The position numbers were made by a program, and so were the translations under genes. This document shows positions 1 to 19,529 of a stretch of DNA of 22,618 nt, piece by piece. Below the pieces are notes generated by a model that did not search any database, was not told where the DNA came from, and was given only the letters and a program-made list of their open reading frames with translations. This DNA is from a virus. Position 1 is the stretch's first letter. Each line of letters begins with the position of its first letter. The stretch is from positions 1 to 22,618 of the IMG/VR virus record IMGVR_UViG_3300008110_000457. The stretch is one strand, 5' to 3'.

Positions 1-269
1 TCCAAACAATTCTTTACATTGTAATCACTCTACTTGTTACAACATGCATAAAGCCAAATAGAACGATTGTTTGAAATGCTTATGGCATAAGGGTTTAGCG
101 AGATAGCCACGCATCTTGGCGATTGTTCCACGGGAAAGCATGGTTTAAACGGTCGTTCGATGGTCATTTGAGCAGTGTTCATGCGAGTAGGTGGGGGGAG
201 GCGGTGCGGCCTGCTGCTGCTGGTGAATCTAGATCGGTCAACTAGCCCGATAAAAAATGTTCTAAAGGG

Positions 270-294
270 GCTTGTAGTTTGTCACGATTTGGCA
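270..294 (+). repeat. Intergenic repeat element, copy A
   Basis: Reads GCTTGTAGTTTGT followed by four bases and ATTTGGCA. It matches copy B at 315 after removing CA from GCTTGCATAG and allowing a one-base length change in the middle. Both copies keep the order GCTTG, TAGTTTGT, ATTTGGYA. It sits in non-coding DNA upstream of the first gene. Confidence 0.5.
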
Positions 295-311
295 TTGTGA
301 TTTGTGACAAA
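278..311. promoter_or_regulatory. Inverted repeat, operator-like
   Basis: TTTGTCAC (278-285) and GTGACAAA (304-311) are perfect 8-bp inverted copies separated by 18 bases. There is no T-run after the right arm, so a terminator is unlikely. Its location between two repeat elements just upstream of the first gene fits a protein-binding site or a leader hairpin. The function is inferred only from position and symmetry. Confidence 0.4.
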
Positions 312-314
312 TGA

Positions 315-340
315 GCTTGCATAGTTTGTGGTATTTGGTA
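315..340 (+). repeat. Intergenic repeat element, copy B
   Basis: GCTTGCATAGTTT, then a variable five-base stretch, then AT-TGGTA. It matches copy C at 631-656 at 20 of 26 positions without gaps, including 13 identical leading bases. The TAG inside the element is in frame with a CTT-GCA-TAG (Leu-Ala-stop), exactly the gene end found in copy C, so this copy resembles a relic of a gene end. Confidence 0.6.
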
Positions 341-364
341 AGTAGAGTGATTGGAAGACAAGTT

Positions 365-640
365 ATGAAACCGTATAGAACAGAGCAAGAGGTGTTGAGT
401 ATGTTGCAGGGTGAGGCTAATTACCTTGATTACAATGAGGTATTGGAATGTATCCCGAATGAAGAGGTAAGGAGATTGATTGATTTGAGGTTGGATAGGA
501 GGTATAAGAAGTTAAGGTTTAAGAATGAGTTTGATGTGATTAGGCATATTGATTGGGTTGAAACGCCAGAGGGAGGATCTTTCTGGGTTAAGGTATTTGG
601 ATGGACGATTGGTTTGAATGATTTGCCTAAGCTTGCATAG
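365..640 (+). CDS. Hypothetical early-region protein (91 aa)
   Basis: Unrecognised 91-aa soluble protein, mixed charge, rich in Arg/Lys/Asp/Glu (for example LIDLRLDRRYKKLRFK near the middle), with an aromatic C-terminal part (GGSFWVKVFGWTIG). An in-frame ATG at 311 would add 18 residues, but 365 is preferred because GGAAG lies 7 bases upstream. The 311 start has no ribosome-binding site and lies on a repeat element. The gene is bracketed by repeat copies B and C, and copy C contains its own last two codons and stop. The coding strand is extremely G-rich relative to C, unlike the virion genes. It is probably a small accessory gene transcribed with the methyltransferase. No function can be assigned. 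Confidence 0.6.
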   Translation: MKPYRTEQEVLSMLQGEANYLDYNEVLECIPNEEVRRLIDLRLDRRYKKLRFKNEFDVIRHIDWVETPEGGSFWVKVFGWTIGLNDLPKLA

Positions 641-656
641 TTTTGTTGATCTGGTA
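631..656 (+). repeat. Intergenic repeat element, copy C
   Basis: Starts in the last codons of the 365-640 gene (CTT-GCA-TAG, Leu-Ala-stop) and runs into the leader of the methyltransferase gene at 668. It is identical to copy B for the first 13 bases and matches it at 20 of 26 positions overall. With copy B it forms a direct repeat bracketing the 365-640 gene. Confidence 0.6.
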
Positions 657-667
657 GGGATATTGCT

Positions 668-1420
668 ATGCGTTTAATCAAAGGCGATTGTTTGGAGGAG
701 ATGAAGGGTATAGCTGACGGCAGCGTTGATATGGTGTTGTGCGATTTGCCGTATGGGACTACGCAGAACAAGTGGGACTCGGTAATTCCATTAAAACCGA
801 TGTGGAAAGAATATTGGAGACTATTAAAGCCCAATGGGATTGTTGTGCTTACAGCCCAGACCATGTTCACTGCCTCGTTAATGGTTTCCAGCCCCAATGA
901 ACACCGATACAATTTGATTTGGGAAAAGACAAAAGCTGGAGGTTTTCTGAATGCAAGGAGGATGCCTTTGCAGTCGCACGAGGATATTGTTGTGTTCTAT
1001 AAGTCACTTCCCACCTACAACCCACAAATGGAACCAGGCAAACCTTACACCAAAAAGGCCGCGTCAAATGGCGATGGAAAGAACTATGGGAAGTTTGAGC
1101 GACAAGGCAAAACTGCTGTTAACATAGGGAAGCGTTTTCCGCGTAGCATTTTAAAAATACCAAATGACAATCATGGGTCTGTTCACCCGACCCAAAAGCC
1201 AGTAGCTCTGATGGAATACCTTATCCGCACCTACACCAATAAAGGAGAGACGGTTTTGGATAACACAATGGGTAGCGGAACAACAGGTGTAGCTTGCGTA
1301 AATACTGGTAGAAACTTTATTGGCATCGAGCGTGATGAAAAGTATTTTGAGATAGCTAAAGAGCGTATAGAAAAAGCTAAGATGGACAAGCTGGAGGAAT
1401 TAGATATAAAGGATGTATGA
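668..1420 (+). CDS. Site-specific DNA methyltransferase (N6-adenine/N4-cytosine, beta class)
   Basis: This enzyme transfers a methyl group from S-adenosylmethionine to the exocyclic amino group of adenine or cytosine in DNA. It belongs to the N6_N4_Mtase family (Pfam PF01555 type). The catalytic motif IV is DLPY at residues 26-29. The conserved HPTQKP is at 173-178, and the SAM-binding motif I region VLDNTMGSGTTG is at 196-207, followed by the acidic GIERDEKYFEIAKERI segment. Catalytic motif before SAM motif is the beta-class order. The length of 250 aa is normal and the domain looks complete. No restriction endonuclease is nearby, so it is probably an orphan used for evading host restriction or regulating phage DNA. 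It may act on A or C; the target site cannot be read from the sequence. Its stop overlaps the next start by 4 bases (ATGA). Confidence 0.93.
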   Translation: MRLIKGDCLEEMKGIADGSVDMVLCDLPYGTTQNKWDSVIPLKPMWKEYWRLLKPNGIVVLTAQTMFTASLMVSSPNEHRYNLIWEKTKAGGFLNARRMPLQSHEDIVVFYKSLPTYNPQMEPGKPYTKKAASNGDGKNYGKFERQGKTAVNIGKRFPRSILKIPNDNHGSVHPTQKPVALMEYLIRTYTNKGETVLDNTMGSGTTGVACVNTGRNFIGIERDEKYFEIAKERIEKAKMDKLEELDIKDV

Positions 1421-1590
1421 CTGAGCGAGAACAAGTAGATGCGTTTGCGGATGATCTGGGTAAGTTGATTGATCGTTATAGGTCGGAGTTTGATTTGACC
1501 ATTGCTGGGGTATTGGGCGTATTGGAGTGTGCCAAGCTGGAGATATGGGAGGATAGCCGTGGTGATGATTTCGAGATTGAATTTGAGTGA
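1417..1590 (+). CDS. Small acidic hypothetical protein (57 aa)
   Basis: A short gene easily missed because of its size. ATG at 1417 overlaps the methyltransferase stop (ATGA) and AAAGGA lies just upstream, a reasonable ribosome-binding site. The product begins MTEREQVDAFADDLGKLIDR and ends in an acidic tail (DDFEIEFE). It is strongly acidic and predicted helical, with one Cys. The reading frame fills the gap between its neighbours exactly, and the following gene starts 1 base after the stop. It shares the G-rich codon style of the block (TTG Leu, GAG Glu). Function is unknown; a small regulator or accessory factor translated with the methyltransferase is possible. Confidence 0.7.
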   Translation: MTEREQVDAFADDLGKLIDRYRSEFDLTIAGVLGVLECAKLEIWEDSRGDDFEIEFE

Positions 1591-1591
1591 T

Positions 1592-1819
1592 ATGAGTAAG
1601 GAGCGTAAAGCGTGTAAGTTTTGTTCGATGTTGGTAATGGAGGGTGAGGATGTTTGCCCTACGCATAACGTGGTGGAGTGCTGTGCCTGTGGGCGAGGAG
1701 CATTGTGGACAAGGCGGGTAAGTAAGTATATCTGTATGAATTTGGATTGTGAATGGAGCAGTGATAGCTTGCCTAAGTATGGGGAATTGGATATAGATAA
1801 GAATTATGAAACTATTTAA
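1592..1819 (+). CDS. Small cysteine-rich putative zinc-binding protein (75 aa)
   Basis: The protein begins MSKERKACKFC. Putative metal ligands are C8-x2-C11 with C22-x2-H25, then C30-x2-C33 with C48-x4-C53, which would give two zinc knuckles. The C-terminal 20 residues are acidic and free of Cys. A longer frame opens at 1502, but those extra 30 residues lie over the 57-aa gene in another frame and have no ribosome-binding site, so 1592 is chosen. It starts 1 base after the previous stop and its last 14 bases overlap the next gene. Zinc-ribbon proteins of this size in phages often bind DNA, RNA or host transcription factors, but no specific family is recognised. Confidence 0.7.
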   Translation: MSKERKACKFCSMLVMEGEDVCPTHNVVECCACGRGALWTRRVSKYICMNLDCEWSSDSLPKYGELDIDKNYETI

Positions 1820-2069
1820 ATCAAAGAAGTATAGCTGTGTGGACTGCGGTGAAGAGAGCTGCAAGGCAAATGGTTACTGTGTATCATGTGCTAGGTATAA
1901 GGCTTACCAAGAGTATATTCAGCCGAGTAGTGTATTGCCTGGTGAATTATCGCCGTATAAATCTTTGCTTGTTAAGTATGATGATTTGGTTGAGGAGAAC
2001 AAAGAGTTGAAGGATTTGGTGGCAGACTTGCAAAGTGAGCTTAACGAGAACAAAGAACTATCAGTATGA
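1806..2069 (+). CDS. Putative zinc-knuckle plus coiled-coil protein (87 aa)
   Basis: The N-terminal 30 residues carry C11-x2-C14 and C25-x2-C28, with an extra C19, in a basic context (MKLFKSKKYSCVDCG), a likely zinc ribbon. Residues from about 56 to the end form a heptad-like acidic coiled coil (DDLVEENKELKDLVADLQSE). This would suit a dimeric nucleic-acid-binding or adaptor protein. The start lies inside the 3' end of the preceding Cys-rich gene (14-base overlap) and its stop overlaps the next ATG (ATGA), so the four small genes are probably translationally coupled. The zinc-binding inference rests only on Cys spacing; no family is recognised. Confidence 0.7.
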   Translation: MKLFKSKKYSCVDCGEESCKANGYCVSCARYKAYQEYIQPSSVLPGELSPYKSLLVKYDDLVEENKELKDLVADLQSELNENKELSV

Positions 2070-2266
2070 AGATAACAATAAAGCCAACAGACAAACAGCT
2101 AGGTAGTCCATTTTGCACCCATCCGACTGTGACGGTTGAGATACCGCAGGATGATTTGACTATGGAGCAAGTAATTGATAATTTAATTATCCCAGCTTTA
2201 TTGGGAATGGGTTTCCAGCAAGAGACTATTGAGACATATTTTAATGGTGATTGTGCCAATGGTTGA
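2066..2266 (+). CDS. Small hypothetical protein (66 aa)
   Basis: Acidic 66-aa protein, MKITIKPTDKQLGSPF at the start, with a beta-like N-terminal half (TVTVEIPQDDLTMEQ) and an amphipathic helix (VIDNLIIPALLGMGF). No membrane segment is convincing. The start overlaps the preceding stop by 4 bases, placing it last in the chain of small genes after the methyltransferase. A -35-like TTGACA overlaps its stop codon, marking the end of this block. The sequence is not recognised and no function is assigned. Confidence 0.65.
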   Translation: MKITIKPTDKQLGSPFCTHPTVTVEIPQDDLTMEQVIDNLIIPALLGMGFQQETIETYFNGDCANG

Positions 2267-2291
2267 CAAGTTAGTGGTGATAGGTTAATAA
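2263..2291 (+). promoter_or_regulatory. Candidate sigma70-type promoter for virion genes
   Basis: TTGACA (2263-2268), a perfect consensus -35 box, is followed after 17 bases by TAATAA (2286-2291), a weak -10 box (3 of 6). It lies in the only gap (2267-2302) between the small-gene block and the first virion gene, where base composition also changes. The -10 overlaps a short palindrome GGTTAATAACC. Plausible by position, but the -10 match is poor. Confidence 0.35.
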
Positions 2292-2302
2292 CCAACTTAC
2301 TT

Positions 2303-2554
2303 ATGAGTTCTACAAGCTTTCATTTACAAGGTGGAAACGGCGGCCATGTTCTTAATTCGGGTGAAGGCGCACAGACGGGCAAGACCTATCGGTGGATTCA
2401 GATCGTTGAGGACACCGTGTTTAGCAACCTTGCTGGCAACCTTACAAACATTGCTGACCTGCAATCAATTACGCACCTGGCGGGAACTGGGCTTGGAGGC
2501 AACTTCACAGCAGTTACTGTATCGAGTGGCACTTGCATTGCATACGACCAATAA
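2303..2554 (+). CDS. Small virion-associated protein candidate (83 aa)
   Basis: 83-aa protein, Gly/Thr/Ser-rich and probably all beta (HLQGGNGGHVLNSGEGAQTG, then VSSGTCIAYDQ at the end). It has no charge clusters and no membrane segment. It starts the virion operon and ends 3 bases before the GTG start of the 840-aa nozzle candidate, so it is probably a small structural or neck/tail component made with it. No Shine-Dalgarno precedes the ATG, as with most virion genes here. Composition (balanced C and G) matches the downstream block and not the preceding genes. Not recognised at family level. Confidence 0.7.
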   Translation: MSSTSFHLQGGNGGHVLNSGEGAQTGKTYRWIQIVEDTVFSNLAGNLTNIADLQSITHLAGTGLGGNFTAVTVSSGTCIAYDQ

Positions 2555-2557
2555 ACC

Positions 2558-5080
2558 GTGGCATCCTATCGTTCATTTGGTGGTTTAGACGATCGGCCAT
2601 TGATTGATGGGGACACAGGCTTTGTTGGTATTAACCAGCGTGAGCGTCCTAGTCAGTTAAAAGGTGGTCAAGTTGTGCTTAGTAAGAATGGGCGTATTGA
2701 TGGTTACTGGCAGCCTAGGAAAGGCATTGATTTAAAGAGTGGGCAATTAGCTAATAGTGCTAACCCATTGGCATTGCCGTTTATTGTTTTAGATTCTGTT
2801 CAGACCATAAGCACGGCATCGAGGACAAGTAATGTTGTTACGATTAACCTATCTGCTGCCCATGGTATTGCGAGCTTAGACTTGCCAGCTTATATTACCT
2901 TGGGAACACCAAGCGTTGCTACGCAGCCAATCACAGGGATTGATGCGGGTTCATACTTAATGAGTTACGTTGATGCTGACAGCTTGAGCTTTGCTAATGT
3001 TGGGACGGACAGTGGTAGCTTAACGGTTAATGGCACGTATGGTAAGATAGCAACTATCATAGATAACAATGCGGTAAGTGCTATTTACGGTTCGTGTTTG
3101 TTTAGTAACCCTGCTTCCAACTTAGATGAAAGCATTATTGTAGCTACGAACAATGAGGCTAAGAGCATTAACCTTTTTAATTACAGCATTACAGATTTGC
3201 CATATCCAACTGGTGAAAATGTTTCTACAAGCGTAGAGATGCTACAAGCTTTTGATCGCATCTACTTATTCCGTGAAGGAGCTAGGGCATTTGAGTATAT
3301 TCCGCAAGGACGTAACATCTTAGCATCTGGTTACACAAGTGCAACAGGCATAGTTAATATTAGCCTTAAAGATCACGGCTTAAAAGCTGGTGATAGCATT
3401 ACTATTTCTGGTATTACTTTTTCTGGAACGCCGCCAACAGCAGACCCAAATGGAACGCATATAGTAACAACTAACGTTGATGCTGATAACTTTCAGTATG
3501 TAATTGCCACAGGAAGCGGAGATGAAACCTACACCGTAGCAACTGGGTTAATGGTAGCTGCTGGATTTACCCTTGTCCCCGCTGGTGCATATACCCAACC
3601 GCAATTCTTTAACATAGGCGGCAATAAATATGGTGTTACAAACGGTTTAGTTCGATTTGAAGTTGCAGGTAATACTACTATTGTAGCTGGTGATACCATA
3701 AGAATTACTGATACTGATGTTACTATATTGGCTAACGTTATTGGGCAGCAATATACTGTAACATCTGCTACCGCTACTGATATTTACTTTGAAGCTCCTC
3801 TTCCTAACGTCACATTTGGCAGTGGAACTGGTTCTGACTTCATTGAGTTCGGTAGTCGCTTCAGTATAGGCCTTGGATTTACCCACATGCCAGCTCCTAA
3901 GTATGGCGTTTACTTCCAGCGTAGGCTTTGGTGTCCGTATTTCTACGAGCCAGCAGGAACTTCCGCTTCACCTACCTATACAGATAGAAAATTGCGTGAT
4001 GAAATCTGTGCTAGTGACATTCTTGATTCAAGCACCTTTGATTCTATTGCATCGCAGTTCCGAGTTACGGCTGGAATAGCCGATTACTTAGTTGCAATGC
4101 ACCCATTCTATGAGGACAATATGCTTGTTTTCAACAGAAACAGTATTCACATGATTACTGGGACGCAAGGAACGCTAAGTGATACGGTTCTGCGTGAGAT
4201 GACCCGCGAAGTTGGCTGTGTTGCACGTAAATCTATTGCAACTAAAGGCAATATGATTATGTTTTTGAGTGATGATGGGGTTTATGCCCTTGATTTCGTT
4301 GACCAATACAACTTGCGTGGGACTGAAGAGCCACTTAGTAAGGCAATTCAACCATTTATTGACAGAATTAACAAAGGTTTAGCGGCAAACTCCGTAGCAA
4401 TCTACTTTGATAACCGTTATTTCCTAGCTGTTCCATTGGATAGCGCACTTGGAGCTAACGATGCCCAAGGAAACAACGCCATACTTGTATTCAACATGAA
4501 AAATAAGGCGTGGGAAAGTATTGATACCTTTGGTAACAACGATTTTAACATTACTAACCTACTTAAAGGACAAGCCGAGGAAAGAAACGAGTTATATATC
4601 GTAAACTCAAACGGCGGGGTTCACTTAGCTGACGCTAACGAAACTGCCCAAGACAATTACTCGATTAGCACCACTGGTTCTGAATTACAGGCAGCTATTG
4701 ACTACGAACTTCAGACTAGGGGTTACACTTTTGACGATTACGGAAGGAAAAAATTTAAAAAAGCTACGATCCAAATGCAATCTGGCGACTTTAACGCATC
4801 AGATGTGGACTTTCTTTTTTCAACCGAAGATCCAGACAGTGCAAACGGTTTTGTTACCGATATTGCAACCATGCTAGATGTAAACATTGGATTACCTGGG
4901 CAGCTTGATGGTGGCGAGAACGCAGACTTTAGTTTTAGACTTGGAAACCCACGTGGAGTCTATGGTGTATTGACAATCAAGCGAAAAATTGTAGGATCGA
5001 CTGCGATAGGTCGCCCTAAAGTTACATCCATTGCTATTGAATCTACAAAAACCAATGGGCAAACTATTACCCAATACTAA
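2558..5080 (+). CDS. Large tail nozzle/hub protein candidate (840 aa)
   Basis: Large all-beta virion protein. The N-terminus (RSFGGLDDRPLIDGDTGFVG) leads into two related inserted beta modules at about 85-150 and 255-320. Each has an S/T-x-x-V-x-I strand, an HG turn and a VDAD-[SN]-[LF]-x-[FY] end. A third, more diverged segment lies at about 350-420. Residues from about 430 to 760 contain repeated aromatic/Gly strands (YEDNMLVFNRNSIHMITG, NMIMFLSDDGVYAL, DNRYFLAVPLDS) like the propeller of P22 gp10-type nozzle/stabilisation proteins. Start is GTG at 2558; no Shine-Dalgarno is present. It lies next to a fibre gene, which fits a role in sealing the neck and carrying fibres. The nozzle assignment is inferred from size, position and pattern; an alternative is another tail hub protein. 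Confidence 0.6.
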   Translation: MASYRSFGGLDDRPLIDGDTGFVGINQRERPSQLKGGQVVLSKNGRIDGYWQPRKGIDLKSGQLANSANPLALPFIVLDSVQTISTASRTSNVVTINLSAAHGIASLDLPAYITLGTPSVATQPITGIDAGSYLMSYVDADSLSFANVGTDSGSLTVNGTYGKIATIIDNNAVSAIYGSCLFSNPASNLDESIIVATNNEAKSINLFNYSITDLPYPTGENVSTSVEMLQAFDRIYLFREGARAFEYIPQGRNILASGYTSATGIVNISLKDHGLKAGDSITISGITFSGTPPTADPNGTHIVTTNVDADNFQYVIATGSGDETYTVATGLMVAAGFTLVPAGAYTQPQFFNIGGNKYGVTNGLVRFEVAGNTTIVAGDTIRITDTDVTILANVIGQQYTVTSATATDIYFEAPLPNVTFGSGTGSDFIEFGSRFSIGLGFTHMPAPKYGVYFQRRLWCPYFYEPAGTSASPTYTDRKLRDEICASDILDSSTFDSIASQFRVTAGIADYLVAMHPFYEDNMLVFNRNSIHMITGTQGTLSDTVLREMTREVGCVARKSIATKGNMIMFLSDDGVYALDFVDQYNLRGTEEPLSKAIQPFIDRINKGLAANSVAIYFDNRYFLAVPLDSALGANDAQGNNAILVFNMKNKAWESIDTFGNNDFNITNLLKGQAEERNELYIVNSNGGVHLADANETAQDNYSISTTGSELQAAIDYELQTRGYTFDDYGRKKFKKATIQMQSGDFNASDVDFLFSTEDPDSANGFVTDIATMLDVNIGLPGQLDGGENADFSFRLGNPRGVYGVLTIKRKIVGSTAIGRPKVTSIAIESTKTNGQTITQY

Positions 5081-5083
5081 TTT

Positions 5084-5962
5084 ATGGCTATTCTTACAAA
5101 AGGGCAAACATTTGCCAACGCTGATTCGGTTACAAGCACAAAGTTAAACAACCTTGTTGATGCGGCTGCCTTTGTTGCGGGTGCAAGTGGAACTACTGAC
5201 AACACTTCGCTTGAGGTAAACGGCAGTGGTCGCTTGCAGGTTAAAGACCTTGGTATTACTTCGGCTAAGATTGCCGCAAGTGCAATTACTACTTCTAAAT
5301 TGCCAGATTCAACCTTAGCTACTGACGGAGTTACCTATGCCAAAGTGCAAAGGGTAGCCAACATGAAAGCATTGGGTAATGTTTCTGGTTCATTAGGAGT
5401 TGTAGCAGAAGTTTCTATCCTCGATGAGGATAATATGGCAAGCGATAGTGCAACTTCATTAGCTACACAGCAAAGCATTAAAGCTTATACCGATACCAAA
5501 GTAGCAGCAGTAATTACAAGAGGAACAGCGGTAGCTACAACCAGCGGAACAAGTGTTGATTTTACATCTATACCGTCCACAGTTAAACGCATTACAGTAA
5601 TGTTTGATGCGGTCAGCAATAGCGGTGGGGATGAATATATTATTCAAATCGGAGATGCTGGAGGTGTTGAAACTACTGCATACGTTTCCCAATCAAGTGA
5701 TCGTGGTGGAGATCAAACAGCTACCAACGGATTTATCATATCAAGAGGAAATTTATCATCTTCAGTTAACTATGGAACGATTATAATAAATAATTTTTCT
5801 GGTAATATATGGTCTTCATTTGGAAATTTATCAAGAGGAAGCACTGTTGCGTCATCTACTGGCTCTAAAACACTTTCTGCAACACTAGATCGCATACGCA
5901 TTACTACTACTGGTGGCGTTAATACCTTTGATGCAGGATCAGTAAACATCATGTATGAGTAA
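5084..5962 (+). CDS. Tail fibre/spike-type protein (292 aa)
   Basis: Ser/Thr/Gly/Ala-rich elongated protein. The N-terminal 110 residues contain fibre-shaft type repeats (SAKIAASAITTSKLPDSTL, ADSVTSTKLNNL), seen in many trimeric phage fibres. The middle (residues about 120-150) is helical with LATQQSIKAYTDTKV, a motif commonly found before fibre tip domains. The C-terminal domain (about 150-292) is beta-rich and ends in DRIRITTTGGVNTFDAGSV, resembling a small receptor-binding tip. It probably recognises the host surface. It follows the nozzle candidate by 3 bases and overlaps the next gene by 8. No S74 chaperone is attached to it; that domain occurs instead on the protein encoded from 6296. 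Confidence 0.75.
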   Translation: MAILTKGQTFANADSVTSTKLNNLVDAAAFVAGASGTTDNTSLEVNGSGRLQVKDLGITSAKIAASAITTSKLPDSTLATDGVTYAKVQRVANMKALGNVSGSLGVVAEVSILDEDNMASDSATSLATQQSIKAYTDTKVAAVITRGTAVATTSGTSVDFTSIPSTVKRITVMFDAVSNSGGDEYIIQIGDAGGVETTAYVSQSSDRGGDQTATNGFIISRGNLSSSVNYGTIIINNFSGNIWSSFGNLSRGSTVASSTGSKTLSATLDRIRITTTGGVNTFDAGSVNIMYE

Positions 5963-6296
5963 TACATTCCTTACAATGATTGATAAAGCAAAAAACATAT
6001 ATGCACTTGCTGGTGGAGATTTCCATAAGCAACTTGGGTGGCATCTTGTTCATGGCATTGTTATATCTATTCCAGTAGCTTTTTGCATGGGTTACTGGTG
6101 CGTAAAAGGAAAAGAACAAGTAGCCGTTCCTTTAGAAGAAGCTAATTGCTTGTGCATGACTTACCTTTGCGGATCAATGAAAGAAGGGCTTACATTGCTT
6201 GTAGATCATGTTCCGTATGTAACTTTCCAAAGAGAAATAAAAGGCGATCCTCGCTTTAGAACATACAATTTTAAACAACTATACTCAAAAATATAA
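5955..6296 (+). CDS. Hypothetical protein with one membrane segment (113 aa)
   Basis: Unrecognised 113-aa protein. Residues about 27-48 (GWHLVHGIVISIPVAFCMGYW) form one probable transmembrane helix, preceded by a short amphipathic N-terminus and followed by a Lys/Glu segment and a Cys-containing region (EANCLCMTYLCGSMKEG). The C-terminal 40 residues are soluble and basic. The start overlaps the fibre gene by 8 bases, and its stop TAA shares a base with the next ATG (TAATG), so it is part of the virion operon. Position between fibre and virion proteins permits a membrane-associated ejection factor. A lysis role (pinholin or spanin) is possible, but no lipobox or second helix supports it. Confidence 0.6.
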   Translation: MSNTFLTMIDKAKNIYALAGGDFHKQLGWHLVHGIVISIPVAFCMGYWCVKGKEQVAVPLEEANCLCMTYLCGSMKEGLTLLVDHVPYVTFQREIKGDPRFRTYNFKQLYSKI

Positions 6297-7336
6297 TGGG
6301 CGGATTAAAATCACTTATATCAGGGCCAGATAAGGTTAAAGCACCTAAGATGGATATTGCTGGTGACATAAATAAATATGTTACTGGCTATCAACAAGCA
6401 TTGCCTGGAGTGCTATCTGCTGAACGGCAATATCGTCCAGAGTTCTTGGGATTAAACCTTGGAGACGTAAATACGTTTTTGCAAGGAACTCAAGGCCAAC
6501 AAGGGCTATACGATATTGGTAGAACAGCACAGCAACAAACTGGACAAAGCATTGCAGACGCTAGAGCTGCTGAGTTAGCTTCCATGACTGGGCAAACTGG
6601 TGCGTTCCGTGGATTTGCACAAGCACTATCGCCAGAGGCACAAGCACAAGTAGATGCTTCTACCCAAGCAGCCGCCGCAGCTACCCAAGCAGCACGGCAA
6701 CTTACCCCAGAAGAGCAGCGTATGAGTGACCAAGCAGCACGTGAGGCATTTGCTTCCCGTGGTATGTTAAATAGCCGAGGTTCTATCGCAAGCGAGGTTC
6801 TAGGGCGTTCTGGAGTAATGGCAGCCAAACGACAAGAAGCTGACGCAGCTCGCACTGGAGCGTTTAATATGGCTCAGAACTTCTACACAGCACCTGGACT
6901 ACAAGCCCTTGGCAATACACCGTTGTCTTATCAACTTGGCCAAGACCAACTTAAACTTGGTTTGGGTGCTATTGGTAGTGCTACCCCACAACTTATCAAC
7001 CCAGATACTGGCGTTAATCTTGGTATGCAGAACAGAGCTAACCAAGTTGCTGCCGCTGGAGCAAACGCCCAAGCACAATCAAATTACGCATCTGGACTAT
7101 TCCAAGGAATTGGAAGTGCAGTTGGTGGAATTGCAATGGCTTCTGATATTCGCATTAAAGAAAACATTCGTAAAGTTGGATCAACCGATGGTGGTTTACC
7201 AGTCTATACTTATAACTATATTGGAAGCGATATTACCCAAATGGGTGTTATGGCACAAGATGTAGAGAAAGTTAATCCAGATGCGGTTACAGAATCAAAC
7301 GGTATCAAAGCTGTTTATTACTCACTAATTAAATAA
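6296..7336 (+). CDS. Ala/Gln-rich virion protein with C-terminal S74 chaperone/protease domain
   Basis: Residues 1-280 are helical and very rich in Ala, Gln and Gly (for example 115-135), like internal/ejection proteins of podoviruses. A Gly-rich hinge (FQGIGSAVGGIAMA, 269-282) precedes a short S74-type intramolecular chaperone: SDIRIKENI at 283-291 and MGVMAQDVEKVNPDAV at 316-331. In the family the Ser-Asp pair at the start is the self-cleavage dyad (S283, D284), so cleavage before S283 would free a fragment of about 64 residues. S74 domains normally assist trimeric fibre or spike folding, and the domain here is attached to a non-fibre body. The gene follows the one-TM gene with a TAATG junction and precedes two other large virion proteins. 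The S74 call is confident; the ejection role is inferred. Confidence 0.8.
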   Translation: MGGLKSLISGPDKVKAPKMDIAGDINKYVTGYQQALPGVLSAERQYRPEFLGLNLGDVNTFLQGTQGQQGLYDIGRTAQQQTGQSIADARAAELASMTGQTGAFRGFAQALSPEAQAQVDASTQAAAAATQAARQLTPEEQRMSDQAAREAFASRGMLNSRGSIASEVLGRSGVMAAKRQEADAARTGAFNMAQNFYTAPGLQALGNTPLSYQLGQDQLKLGLGAIGSATPQLINPDTGVNLGMQNRANQVAAAGANAQAQSNYASGLFQGIGSAVGGIAMASDIRIKENIRKVGSTDGGLPVYTYNYIGSDITQMGVMAQDVEKVNPDAVTESNGIKAVYYSLIK

Positions 7337-11802: not shown

Positions 11803-12348
11803 ATGGATGAAGGTAAAGACAACTCACTAATCGACAACAAGGCAGCTATGATTAAGTTCATGGATGCCATTAAGGATCGCGCTAAGGACTTGCCGTCTAA
11901 TAGTATTGAGAATACCAAGCCAGACGTTGCGGTTAAAGCATTGTGGTTGTTGTCCCAAGGCGCACCATACACGGAGATTCGCCGTATTACTAGGTTGTCG
12001 CATGAGACGATTAGGCGTTTGGAGTGGGATCACAACACCACGCTGGAGAAGAAACGTAAGGAGTTCTCTACCCGCTATGCTATGGCAGCAATGGAATACA
12101 CTGACCTGCTATTTATGAAGGCAGAGCGTATCCACGATAACCCAGACTTGCTTGACGACATTTCGCCAGAGAAGTTGGCTACTACGGTTGGTATCATGCA
12201 GGACAAATCATCTTCGCTTGCTGGCATTACTGATGCTGGAGTTGGACAAAAAGCTGGACTGTCTATCGAGGACGCATTAGTGCTGATTGAAGCATCCAAG
12301 CAAAAACGCGCACAAAAGGTTATTGATGCGGAGGTTATAGATGCTTAA
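11803..12348 (+). CDS. Terminase small subunit
   Basis: 181-aa protein directly upstream of, and overlapping by 8 bases, the large terminase gene. Residues 43-75 (VAVKALWLLSQGAPYTEIRR and the following RLSHETIRRLEW) form a helix-turn-helix that should recognise the packaging site. Residues 80-140 are helical for oligomerisation, and the C-terminal 30 residues (SIEDALVLIEASKQKRAQK) probably contact TerL. The size is normal for TerS. The 41-base gap before it contains a small palindrome (TTAGC-TT-GCTAA at 11762-11773). No Shine-Dalgarno is seen. TerS sequences diverge strongly, so the assignment rests on the HTH and the neighbour; confidence is fairly high. Confidence 0.85.
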   Translation: MDEGKDNSLIDNKAAMIKFMDAIKDRAKDLPSNSIENTKPDVAVKALWLLSQGAPYTEIRRITRLSHETIRRLEWDHNTTLEKKRKEFSTRYAMAAMEYTDLLFMKAERIHDNPDLLDDISPEKLATTVGIMQDKSSSLAGITDAGVGQKAGLSIEDALVLIEASKQKRAQKVIDAEVIDA

Positions 12349-13942
12349 CTGGACACCCCACGAAATACTAAGCATCCCGTCTGACGATGAGATTGCTGAG
12401 ATGGAAGCTAGTGAGCTTGTTGAGCTATACGCTGCACGGGAAGAAGCTATCCGTAACTCTAATAAAGACCCATTTAGGTATGGGTTCAAGTTTAACCATT
12501 GGAATAAAGTATGGAATGAGCTTACGGAGCGGGATGAAGCGTTGGTGCTTGGAGGAAATCGCTCAAGCAAAACTCAGTTTGGTGCGTATAGTGTAGTAAA
12601 AGCAGCAATGGAAAACCCTGCGTCTATCATCATGTGCTTTGCCCAAAGCTCTGAGGTTAGCATCCGTCAGCAACAAAGCGCGGTATATAACTGGCTACCA
12701 CCAGAGTATCGCATGAAGCAGACTAGCAGTAATGCTTACATTAGCTATACGCTAAAAAACGGATTTACGGATAACAGCTTAATCCTGCCAAACAAAAGCC
12801 AGATTCTATTTAAGACCTACTCCCAGTATCAGAATAATCCTACGTTTATCGAAGGTGCAGAGCTTGGTTCTAAAAGTGCTACATGGCACAATATTGGTGT
12901 TTGGCTAGACGAGTATCTGCTTGGTGAGGATTTGATTAGCACGATGCGTTTCCGTCTTGCTACCCGCAACAGTAAGATGCTTGTGACGTTCACGCCGATT
13001 GATGGCTGGACTGAGGTTATTAAGGACTACTTAGACAAAGCTAAAACCATTGAAACACGCGAGGCTGAACTGCTTAACGGTGAGATACTACCATACATCC
13101 AGCATAGCCATAAACGTAACGCTTCCATCCACTACTTTCATACCATAGACAACCCGTTCTCTGGTTACGAAAGGCTTGCAAACGATCTTAGGAACGAGAG
13201 CCGCGAGAAGATACTTATCCGTGCTTATGGCGTTCCAGTAAAGTCACAAGCTACCAAGTTCCCTAAGTTTAACAAGGAAGTCAACGTAGTGCCGCATGAG
13301 ACTATTCCGACCAAAGGCATTACTCGTTATCACATTATCGACCCTGCTGGTAGTAAGAACTGGTTCATGTCATGGATCGCGGTTGACGGTAGCGGAACGT
13401 ATTACGTTTATCGTGAATGGCCAGACACAACTATTGGCGAATGGGCAGAATGGAAGAATGGCAAGTGGGCATCTGGTGAAGGAGCTAAAGGGCTAGGCTA
13501 TGGTATGAAAGACTACGTTGATCTTATCCATGAGCTTGAGGGTGACGAGGAAATCTACGGTAGGATTATCGACCCACGCCTTGGAGCTGCAAAATATCAA
13601 GCACAGGATGGCAGTAGTTCTATTATTGAGGACTTAGCTGAGAACGACATTATCTGCATCCCAGCACCTGGTTTGGATATTGAGGACGGTTTACAAGCAC
13701 TTATCTCCAAGATGAGTTGGGATACCAGCAAACCAATGGATAGTTTAAATCGTCCGAAGTTCTACGTTAGCGAAGAATGTGGCAATGTCATATCGGCATT
13801 ATCGGAATACACAGGTGAGCATGGCTTAAAAGAAGCATGGAAAGACCCGTTGGATACCTTGCGTTACGCTGCTATTTATGGTATTGACCACGTAGAGGCA
13901 GGATCATTTGAGGTTACAATGCAAGGTTCGGGAGGATATTAA
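12341..13942 (+). CDS. terL: Terminase large subunit (packaging ATPase/nuclease)
   Basis: Motor that pumps DNA into the prohead and cuts it. The Walker A motif is GGNRSSKT at 71-78, Walker B is IGVWLDE at 185-191 with catalytic E191, and the coupling motif follows at LVTFTPI (214-220). The C-terminal RNase H-like nuclease has candidate metal ligands D334 (YHIIDPAG), D411 (RIIDPRLG) and D505 (DTLRYA). Length (533 aa) and domain order are complete. One of the few genes here with a strong ribosome-binding site: GGAGG at 12330-12334, 6 bases before ATG. The start overlaps the TerS end. The packaging mode (headful, cos or pac) cannot be told from motifs alone. Confidence 0.95.
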   Translation: MLNWTPHEILSIPSDDEIAEMEASELVELYAAREEAIRNSNKDPFRYGFKFNHWNKVWNELTERDEALVLGGNRSSKTQFGAYSVVKAAMENPASIIMCFAQSSEVSIRQQQSAVYNWLPPEYRMKQTSSNAYISYTLKNGFTDNSLILPNKSQILFKTYSQYQNNPTFIEGAELGSKSATWHNIGVWLDEYLLGEDLISTMRFRLATRNSKMLVTFTPIDGWTEVIKDYLDKAKTIETREAELLNGEILPYIQHSHKRNASIHYFHTIDNPFSGYERLANDLRNESREKILIRAYGVPVKSQATKFPKFNKEVNVVPHETIPTKGITRYHIIDPAGSKNWFMSWIAVDGSGTYYVYREWPDTTIGEWAEWKNGKWASGEGAKGLGYGMKDYVDLIHELEGDEEIYGRIIDPRLGAAKYQAQDGSSSIIEDLAENDIICIPAPGLDIEDGLQALISKMSWDTSKPMDSLNRPKFYVSEECGNVISALSEYTGEHGLKEAWKDPLDTLRYAAIYGIDHVEAGSFEVTMQGSGGY

Positions 13943-18542: not shown

Positions 18543-19529
18543 ATGCCTATTTCAAATACATATAGCCCTAGTGTTCCTAGCACTAGTTCATCCGTTGGAT
18601 CAAACAAAGGTAACCGCGAAGACCTCTCCGCGATGCTTACCATGCTTGAGCCAGAACAAACCCCTATCACTTCCCTTTGCGCTAAAGCAAAAGCTTCTGG
18701 AGTTCTCCATGAGTGGGTAATTGATGGTCTTGAAGCTCCTAACGCAGATGGTATCGGTGAGACTTCTGATGTTACTTCGTTCAGCAACAAGTTTGCTTCG
18801 CGTGGTCGCCTTGGTAACTACACCCAAATCTTCCGTAAGGATTACCTTGTTTCCGACTTGCAGAACGCAGTTGCAAGCGTAGGCCCTGCTGACGTTGCCC
18901 AGGCAAAAGCTAAAGCATTGCGTGAAATCAAACGCGACATTGAGTTCGCAGTTGCTTCCAACAATGACCGCCAAGCTGAAGATGGTACGAATCCTTACAA
19001 GCTCCGTGGACTCGGTGATTGGCTTGATTCTGCTGGCCCTGCTGACGTTCCTGCTGCTTATCGTACGCCTTCCGCTTCGATCCTTGGCGCAACCGTAACT
19101 GAGGCTACTCTTAACAACTTGCTTGGCAGTATCTTCAGTGAGACTGGCGAGATGGGTAATCTTACCCTTGTTGCTAACGTAGCACTTCGTAAAGTTATTG
19201 CTAACTTCACCCGTGCTGAAGGAACGACAACCGCTAGAGCATACAACGTAAACGAAGATGCTGTTTCACGTAGAATCACCCTTAGCGTATCGCTCTTCGA
19301 TACTGACTTTGGTGTTATCAAACTTGTAAACGGCAACCCAGCTTGTATGCCAACCGCAACCACAAACGTTGGTTACGTCCTTGATCCTAAGTATCTTGGT
19401 ATTGGTAACTTGCTTCCACTTGAGTCTGTTGTCCTTGAGAACCAAGGTGCAGGTGAGCGTGGATACGTCAAGACGGCTTGCACCCTTGTTTGCAAATCGC
19501 CACAAGCACACGGTAAAATCGCTTACTAA
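18543..19529 (+). CDS. Major capsid protein, SU10/DUF5309-like
   Basis: 328-aa main shell protein, HK97 fold expected. Family-type signatures: LEPEQTPITSLCAKAKASGV with HEWVIDGL (about 35-63), RGRLGNYTQIFRKDYLVSDLQNAV (88-110, read as two parts), and ALREIKRDIEFAVASNN (125-141). All are typical of the DUF5309 family that includes the SU10 podovirus capsid. Position after the scaffold candidate and before a decoration-like gene supports this. Codon use here is C-rich with many preferred codons (GAC, ATC, AAC), as expected for the most highly expressed gene. A perfect 15-bp repeat (18882-18896 and 19035-19049) encodes GPADV twice. The start has no Shine-Dalgarno, with TAATAATATG as leader. Confidence 0.9.
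   Translation: MPISNTYSPSVPSTSSSVGSNKGNREDLSAMLTMLEPEQTPITSLCAKAKASGVLHEWVIDGLEAPNADGIGETSDVTSFSNKFASRGRLGNYTQIFRKDYLVSDLQNAVASVGPADVAQAKAKALREIKRDIEFAVASNNDRQAEDGTNPYKLRGLGDWLDSAGPADVPAAYRTPSASILGATVTEATLNNLLGSIFSETGEMGNLTLVANVALRKVIANFTRAEGTTTARAYNVNEDAVSRRITLSVSLFDTDFGVIKLVNGNPACMPTATTNVGYVLDPKYLGIGNLLPLESVVLENQGAGERGYVKTACTLVCKSPQAHGKIAY

Follow-up and report, generated by a model that had tools for sequence, protein, structure and literature searches.

A promoter-like repeat brackets a probably exchangeable gene unit at the head of a phage late operon

Results

Genes of the Locus and Their Relatives

The window, by which we mean the whole stretch of 22,618 bases analysed here (an IMG/VR virus record), comes from a tailed phage. 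Its genes from 365 to 2554 run into the late (structural) block. The first of them, at 365-640 (+ strand, 91 amino acids), belongs to no known family and has relatives in L002 and L003 only. It is followed at 668-1420 (+ strand) by a gene for a DNA methyltransferase (PF01555, N6_N4_Mtase) that is missing in L003 and whose stop codon overlaps the start of gene 1417 (1417-1590, + strand, 57 amino acids). Gene 1417 is the first gene past the variable slot that the closer relatives of the window have in common. Gene g2303 (2303-2554, + strand, 83 amino acids) is the gene nearest the leader, on its downstream side, in many distant relatives whose slot is empty; ahead of it, at 2263-2303, the window has a good sigma70-like promoter (TTGACA-17-TAATAA), which L003 has too. 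Farther along are a tail/head-closure-like protein (2558-5080; it matches proteins named head closure or phage stabilization protein in annotated phages), the large terminase (12341-13942) and the major head protein (18543-19529; phrog_1328).

The relatives, gathered both by gene and by leader pattern, are metagenome contigs throughout with the exception of Phage C75C1, which is also the one full-length relative of the window terminase among annotated phages (42%). L002 and L003 have one cassette sequence in common and are counted as one case. A search of the genome contigs set found no related terminase, and the leader pattern, searched in the same set for a host, had no match.

The Leader

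Positions 1-360 hold no convincing gene, and the L003 genes to the left of the leader are apparently oppositely oriented (judged by eye), so that this region looks like a divergent control region. Within it lies a conserved leader core (193-271, + strand) made up of GGGGGGAGGCGGT, about 47 nt, ATAAAAAATG and AAAGGGGC, and aligned in 12 phages. The core pattern, GGGGGG(A/C)GG(C/G)GGT, about 47 nt, AAAAAT, 6-13 nt and GGG, occurs in at least 120 viral contigs; examples are the window (193-274), L145, which is C75C1 (19057-19145), and L167-L241. A few matches (L168, L215, L220, L223, L227), in which the core is spaced more tightly and the genes do not correspond, may represent something different. 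Downstream of the core, phages of the window type have the variable slot, g2303 and the tail gene, and phages of the C75C1 type have the small and large terminase. The gap from leader to g2303 spans about 116 to more than 2000 nt. Since the distance from core to promoter varies, the core may have a role of its own, in packaging, as an origin or in late control. Single-strand folding of the core was not better than that of shuffles, an Rfam search with four relatives returned no credible match, and a search of the literature for the core motif no relevant one.

The L073 contig starts exactly at the G tract of the core (L073 1-12), and the starts of several others lie no more than about 200 nt upstream of it, which could reflect a genome end or the behaviour of the G tract in assembly. 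In L130 and L132 (L132 2180-2240) the core has its GCCC-n-ATAAAAAATG...GGGC unit twice in tandem, in L133 once. A block of about 85 bp with the near-palindromes TTACATTGTAA and CTTATGGCATAAG is found in the window (9-103), L071 (152-223), L131 (4724-4805) and L079 (171-213). Its orientation to the leader is alike in the window, L003, L076, L126, L080 and L130/L132/L133, and opposite in L071, L131 and L079. A perfect 13-nt inverted repeat, AATCACTCTACTT / AAGTAGAGTGATT, at 23-35 and 340-352, brackets the window leader; chance may account for it, as L003 has a different left arm.

Copies of the Repeat

A short repeat begins at 270 (copy A), 315 (copy B) and 631 (copy C). Counted from 315 and 631, copies B and C are identical at 20 of 26 positions, including the 13 leading bases that an earlier note on this DNA had pointed out, and they have 14 exact bases in common once the preceding A (314 and 630) is included. 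This is the longest exact direct repeat in window 1-667. Dinucleotide shuffles of the same region gave an exact repeat of at least 13 nt in 7 of 1000 cases and of at least 14 nt in 4 of 1000, and a pair of 26-mers matching at 20 of 26 positions or better in 5 of 300, so few shuffles reach the B/C repeat. The earlier note had described a three-copy element, and the three positions hold, but copy A aligns with B or C solely through gaps, with a score that was equalled in 5 of 500 shuffles against B and in 59 of 500 against C. Copy A (270-294, + strand) closes the conserved leader, GGGGCTTG, directly after AAAGGG, where the intact element stands in relatives; it has no TA box at the expected distance. 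We regard it as a degenerate or decayed leader copy and not as a third equal one.

Copy B (315-344, + strand) consists of TTGCAT (317-322), a 16-nt spacer and TAAGTA (339-344), and copy C (631-660, + strand) of TTGCAT (633-638), a 16-nt spacer and TAGGGA (655-660). Both are promoter-like, the start of the -35-like box being 48 nt from the ATG at 365 in copy B and 35 nt from the ATG at 668 in copy C. Copy C overlaps the stop codon (638-640) of the upstream 365-640 gene. The reading CTT-GCA-TAG, correctly reported earlier for both copies (316-324 and 632-640), had been taken as a possible duplicated gene end. This explanation of the stop falls away: the TAG overlaps the last base of TTGCAT, and any ORF entering the element in the TAG frame stops there, which is why copy B shows Leu-Ala-stop with no gene in front of it. 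The stop codon inside the repeat is incidental.

A search of the whole window with GCTTGCATAGTTT, allowing up to two mismatches, recovered copies B and C and one two-mismatch site on the opposite strand, and the examined stretches of close relatives contained the element nowhere else; within this scope, the motif search that the earlier note had proposed adds no copy at other sites except that one poor match. Most viral-contig matches to the element pattern are unrelated to the window and were treated as chance. The spacer between copies A and B (278-311, + strand) carries an inverted repeat, TTTGTCAC/GTGACAAA. This spacer is present in L003, L076 and L126 and absent from L073 and L071. Because the arms are incompletely kept in L003, L076 and L126, we do not claim an operator role for it.

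Promoter-Like Geometry of the Element

From the conserved arrangement of its boxes we infer that the element is a host-type sigma70-like promoter, in which TTGCAT (TTGACA in distant relatives) is followed after 16-18 nt by TA. At the same position the distant relatives carry TTGACA (C75C1), TTGACG (L005) or TTGACT (L080). TA is found 16-18 nt past the TTG hexamer in 9 of 11 representatives and is absent at this distance from L092/L093, L229 and L240. The start of the -35 box lies 33-35 nt from the ATG in 17 of the 18 leaders listed, the exception being copy B with 48 nt; C75C1 also departs from the ATG distance. The first genes behind this spacing are unrelated to one another and include methyltransferases, gene X, g1417, an HNH gene, g2303 and others. 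The spacers are 30% alike, near the level of unrelated DNA, compared with 75% among the -35 hexamers. With a promoter-like element 33-35 nt from the start codon, transcripts are predicted to begin at or beside that codon and the mRNAs to be near-leaderless. TA stands 11-13 nt ahead of the ATG in 10 of 14 leaders, much as in leaderless (TA-led) bacterial genes, where a TA box lies about 10-12 bp before the start (PMC3160421). Unlike those genes, the element also has a TTGAC-type -35 box and stands ahead of exchangeable phage cargo.

In a separate test, viral contigs were searched by the leader core alone, which gave 67 new distinct leaders among the matches listed. Among these matches, TTGAC occurs within 75 nt in 26 of the 67 leaders, and the first ORF starts 28-30 nt after the hexamer in 11 of 18-20 rows, which is the ATG spacing of the leaders listed above, with none at 20-27 or 31-43. 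L177 and L204 were scored otherwise, an earlier GTG having been taken, and each also has an ATG, at 29 and 28, respectively. A rough binomial probability for this clustering, 3e-12 for 18 rows with kinship thinned by eye, is a guide only. TTGAC is missing at that place in 41 of the 67 new leaders (again among the matches listed), so the promoter form is not universal.

The -10-like boxes TAGGGA and TAAGTA match sigma70 poorly, and a standard sigma70 scan of window 1-2600 listed neither copy B nor copy C. The same interval has 0 terminator-like sites. A Shine-Dalgarno match of at least 5 nt is present within the last 20 nt in 8 of 18 leaders, which is compatible with leadered translation. TTGAC(A/T) with TA at 16-18 nt is found at 16 sites in other intergenic regions of related phages, where the enrichment is suggestive only. 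The repeat had originally been proposed to represent phage promoters or operators; the conserved box geometry argues for the promoter part, whose activity we predict from it, and the operator part has no direct support.

Gain, Loss and Exchange in the Slot

Where the slot is filled in relatives, it contains differing methyltransferases, an HNH gene or small genes; in others nothing occupies it. The distance from leader to gene 1417 is 1145 nt in the window, with two genes between, and 395 nt in L003, with the 365-640 gene only. It is 301 nt in L073 and 347 nt in L076, both with a different small gene (83 amino acids), 931 nt in L080, with the HNH gene, and 1466 nt in L131, with the remains of a methyltransferase. 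In L126 (78 nt) and L130/L132/L133 (34 nt) the slot is empty. Methyltransferases lie directly behind the leader in L071 and L005/L006, and recur near it (L005, L071, L171, L178, L205). A function search with the two small cargo genes was without result.

L003 without its 316-nt B-to-C unit is the arrangement of L126, with 221 of 241 positions identical across the junction, and the window without its 361-nt A-to-C interval is that of L073, which matches up to the end of copy C. This is the precise loss in relatives that the earlier note had named as a check, and these exact empty arrangements bear out its suggestion that the 365-640 gene is a cassette gained between repeats. In L003, copy C is kept and gene 1417 follows immediately, with no methyltransferase. 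The methyltransferase behind copy C is thus cargo too, separate from the 365-640 gene, which corrects the earlier picture of small genes added in front of it.

Over 315-656, from copy B through the gene to copy C, the window and L003 are 98.5% identical (5 of 342 positions differ), with zero differences from 306 to 515; the 365-640 gene has one non-synonymous and three synonymous codon changes. Elsewhere the two are less alike, with about 84% identity in the leader, about 90% in gene 1417 and about 91% in the tail gene. If the background is taken as 8-10%, the probability of so few differences from B through C is 1e-7 to 1e-10; the contrast with the gene at 1592-1819, which is 95% identical, is weaker, about 1e-4. 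An identity of 98.5% against 84-91% in the surroundings suggests that the promoter-gene-promoter unit has probably been exchanged recently at the repeats between the window and L003. The L126 and L073 joints and this identity block all place the exchange joints within the shared short sequence.

Discussion

At this locus a repeat, exact gain and loss, a repeat-bounded identity block, a recurrent slot and a -35-like box that keeps its distance from the ATG are found together. We consider it rather probable, on the comparison of these sequences, that the repeat reproduces the promoter with which the late operon begins and that promoter+ORF units are gained, lost and exchanged at its copies. Past the conserved leader and ahead of the first core gene, accessory genes would be arranged as promoter+ORF units, and units would enter and leave by exchanges that fall inside the promoter copies; a gained gene would end up between two copies, and loss would leave one. 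The window would stack two cargo genes, copy B driving the 365-640 gene and copy C the methyltransferase, with transcription continuing into gene 1417; the transcript from copy B would carry a short leader. Exchange may take place by homologous or annealing recombination at the copies, which we can only infer since 14 nt of repeat is little for homologous recombination. Repeated promoters and a gained cassette had been put forward as alternatives, and the evidence fits both together.

It is tempting to go further, although we lean against it for now, and to hypothesize that the conserved core and a start-codon promoter together form a docking site, common to the whole of a large, uncultured phage clade and placed where the late operon begins, with the copies as homology for swapping. 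The core (G6-A/C-GGSGGT, about 47 bp, A-tract, GGGG) would then be followed by the promoter, and the swapped promoter-ORF units would be mostly methyltransferases and small genes. As no 5' leader would be needed, any ORF joined to the promoter would be expressed at once.

The element could instead be a shared 5' leader or ribosome-binding region, the real promoter being upstream (e.g., TGTTCTAAA / TGCTATAAA) and the copies arising from leader duplication at insertions. Purine-rich stretches do precede the ATG in several copies (TAAGG in L071, AGGAGG in L005), and TGCTATAAA in L126 looks like an extended -10. However, many leaders have no 5-nt Shine-Dalgarno match and yet keep TTGAC at a constant 33-35 nt from the ATG, the element lies at varying distances from AAAGGGG, and it is the two boxes that are conserved rather than the region next to the ATG; we find this reading unlikely. 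A chance resemblance combined with ordinary illegitimate recombination, the repeats being uninvolved in gene gain, would suit a repeat as short as this one (14 exact bases, 20 of 26), and such sequences are missing at most phage mosaic joints (PMC3029335). The rarity of the repeat in shuffles, and the coincidence of the exact L126 and L073 joints and of the window/L003 identity block with it, disfavour this explanation and make it quite improbable.

Two further readings concern what the copies do. Instead of promoters they might be operators or belong to a site for packaging (cos) or replication, as could be suspected from the conserved core that they adjoin, which in C75C1-type phages is beside terminase genes, and from the inverted repeat in the A-B spacer. 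But the core is conserved even without copies B and C, that inverted repeat is incompletely kept in relatives, and the spacing of the element tracks the ATG and not the core, so we hold this to be very unlikely. We give hardly any credence to promoters for a phage-encoded single-subunit (T7-like) RNA polymerase, which would also appear as short conserved sequences ahead of genes: the element is limited to the slot, and its distant versions carry TTGACA. PF00940 had no match in 11 related and possibly incomplete records, a weak argument as the control search was silent too.

The arrangement resembles the PeSLs of T4 and the morons. The PeSLs (promoter early stem-loops) of T4-type phages reportedly go back to Arbiol et al. 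2010 and Comeau et al. 2014. They are promoter-bearing short sequences beside genes, proposed to shuffle gene modules between related phages (PMC4503421). The exchanged gene here adjoins a short sequence that is promoter-like by its conserved box geometry. Unlike in the PeSLs, no terminator stem-loop was found (0 sites in 1-2600), the copies occupy a single slot, both in the window and in the close-relative stretches examined, and are not genome-wide, and the phages are unrelated to the T4 type, with transcripts that are probably leaderless. As in morons (defined in PMC3029335), an extra ORF with its own promoter-like sequence lies between genes that are adjacent in relatives (the empty sites of L126 and L073; L003 without the methyltransferase); unlike them, the unit has no terminator that we could find and carries the same promoter-like sequence on either side.

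Gene 68 of Island3, compared with Brujita, is a small gene between short direct repeats, at which recombination explains exact gain and loss (PMC3029335). The small gene studied here is likewise flanked by short direct repeats and exactly gained and lost, but the Island3/Brujita repeat, of about 50 bp, consists of coding sequence from a 3' end, whereas ours is promoter-like and recurs with different cargo. The start-associated sequences (SASs) of Cluster K mycobacteriophages are short repeats just before start codons (PMC3203893), and our element also lies directly upstream of phage start codons; SASs precede many genes per genome, whereas the element is found at the slot only.

If the promoter-copy reading is correct, small genes could be added without disturbing the late operon, one sequence serving as both driver and exchange point. 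The fixed spacing of 33-35 nt before unrelated genes renders the promoter idea testable. In a poorly known phage clade the core shows where the late operon begins and could guide searches for cargo genes, and the methyltransferases of the slot could guard against restriction.

The slot methyltransferases themselves look mosaic. Between the window gene (668-1420) and that of L071 (367-1170), the DNA is alike at both ends, with 44 of the first 50 bases identical and much of the last 150 shared, and the middle is unlike. In L131 (about 4930 to 6345) all that is left of a methyltransferase is its two ends, separated by about 1 kb of other sequence.
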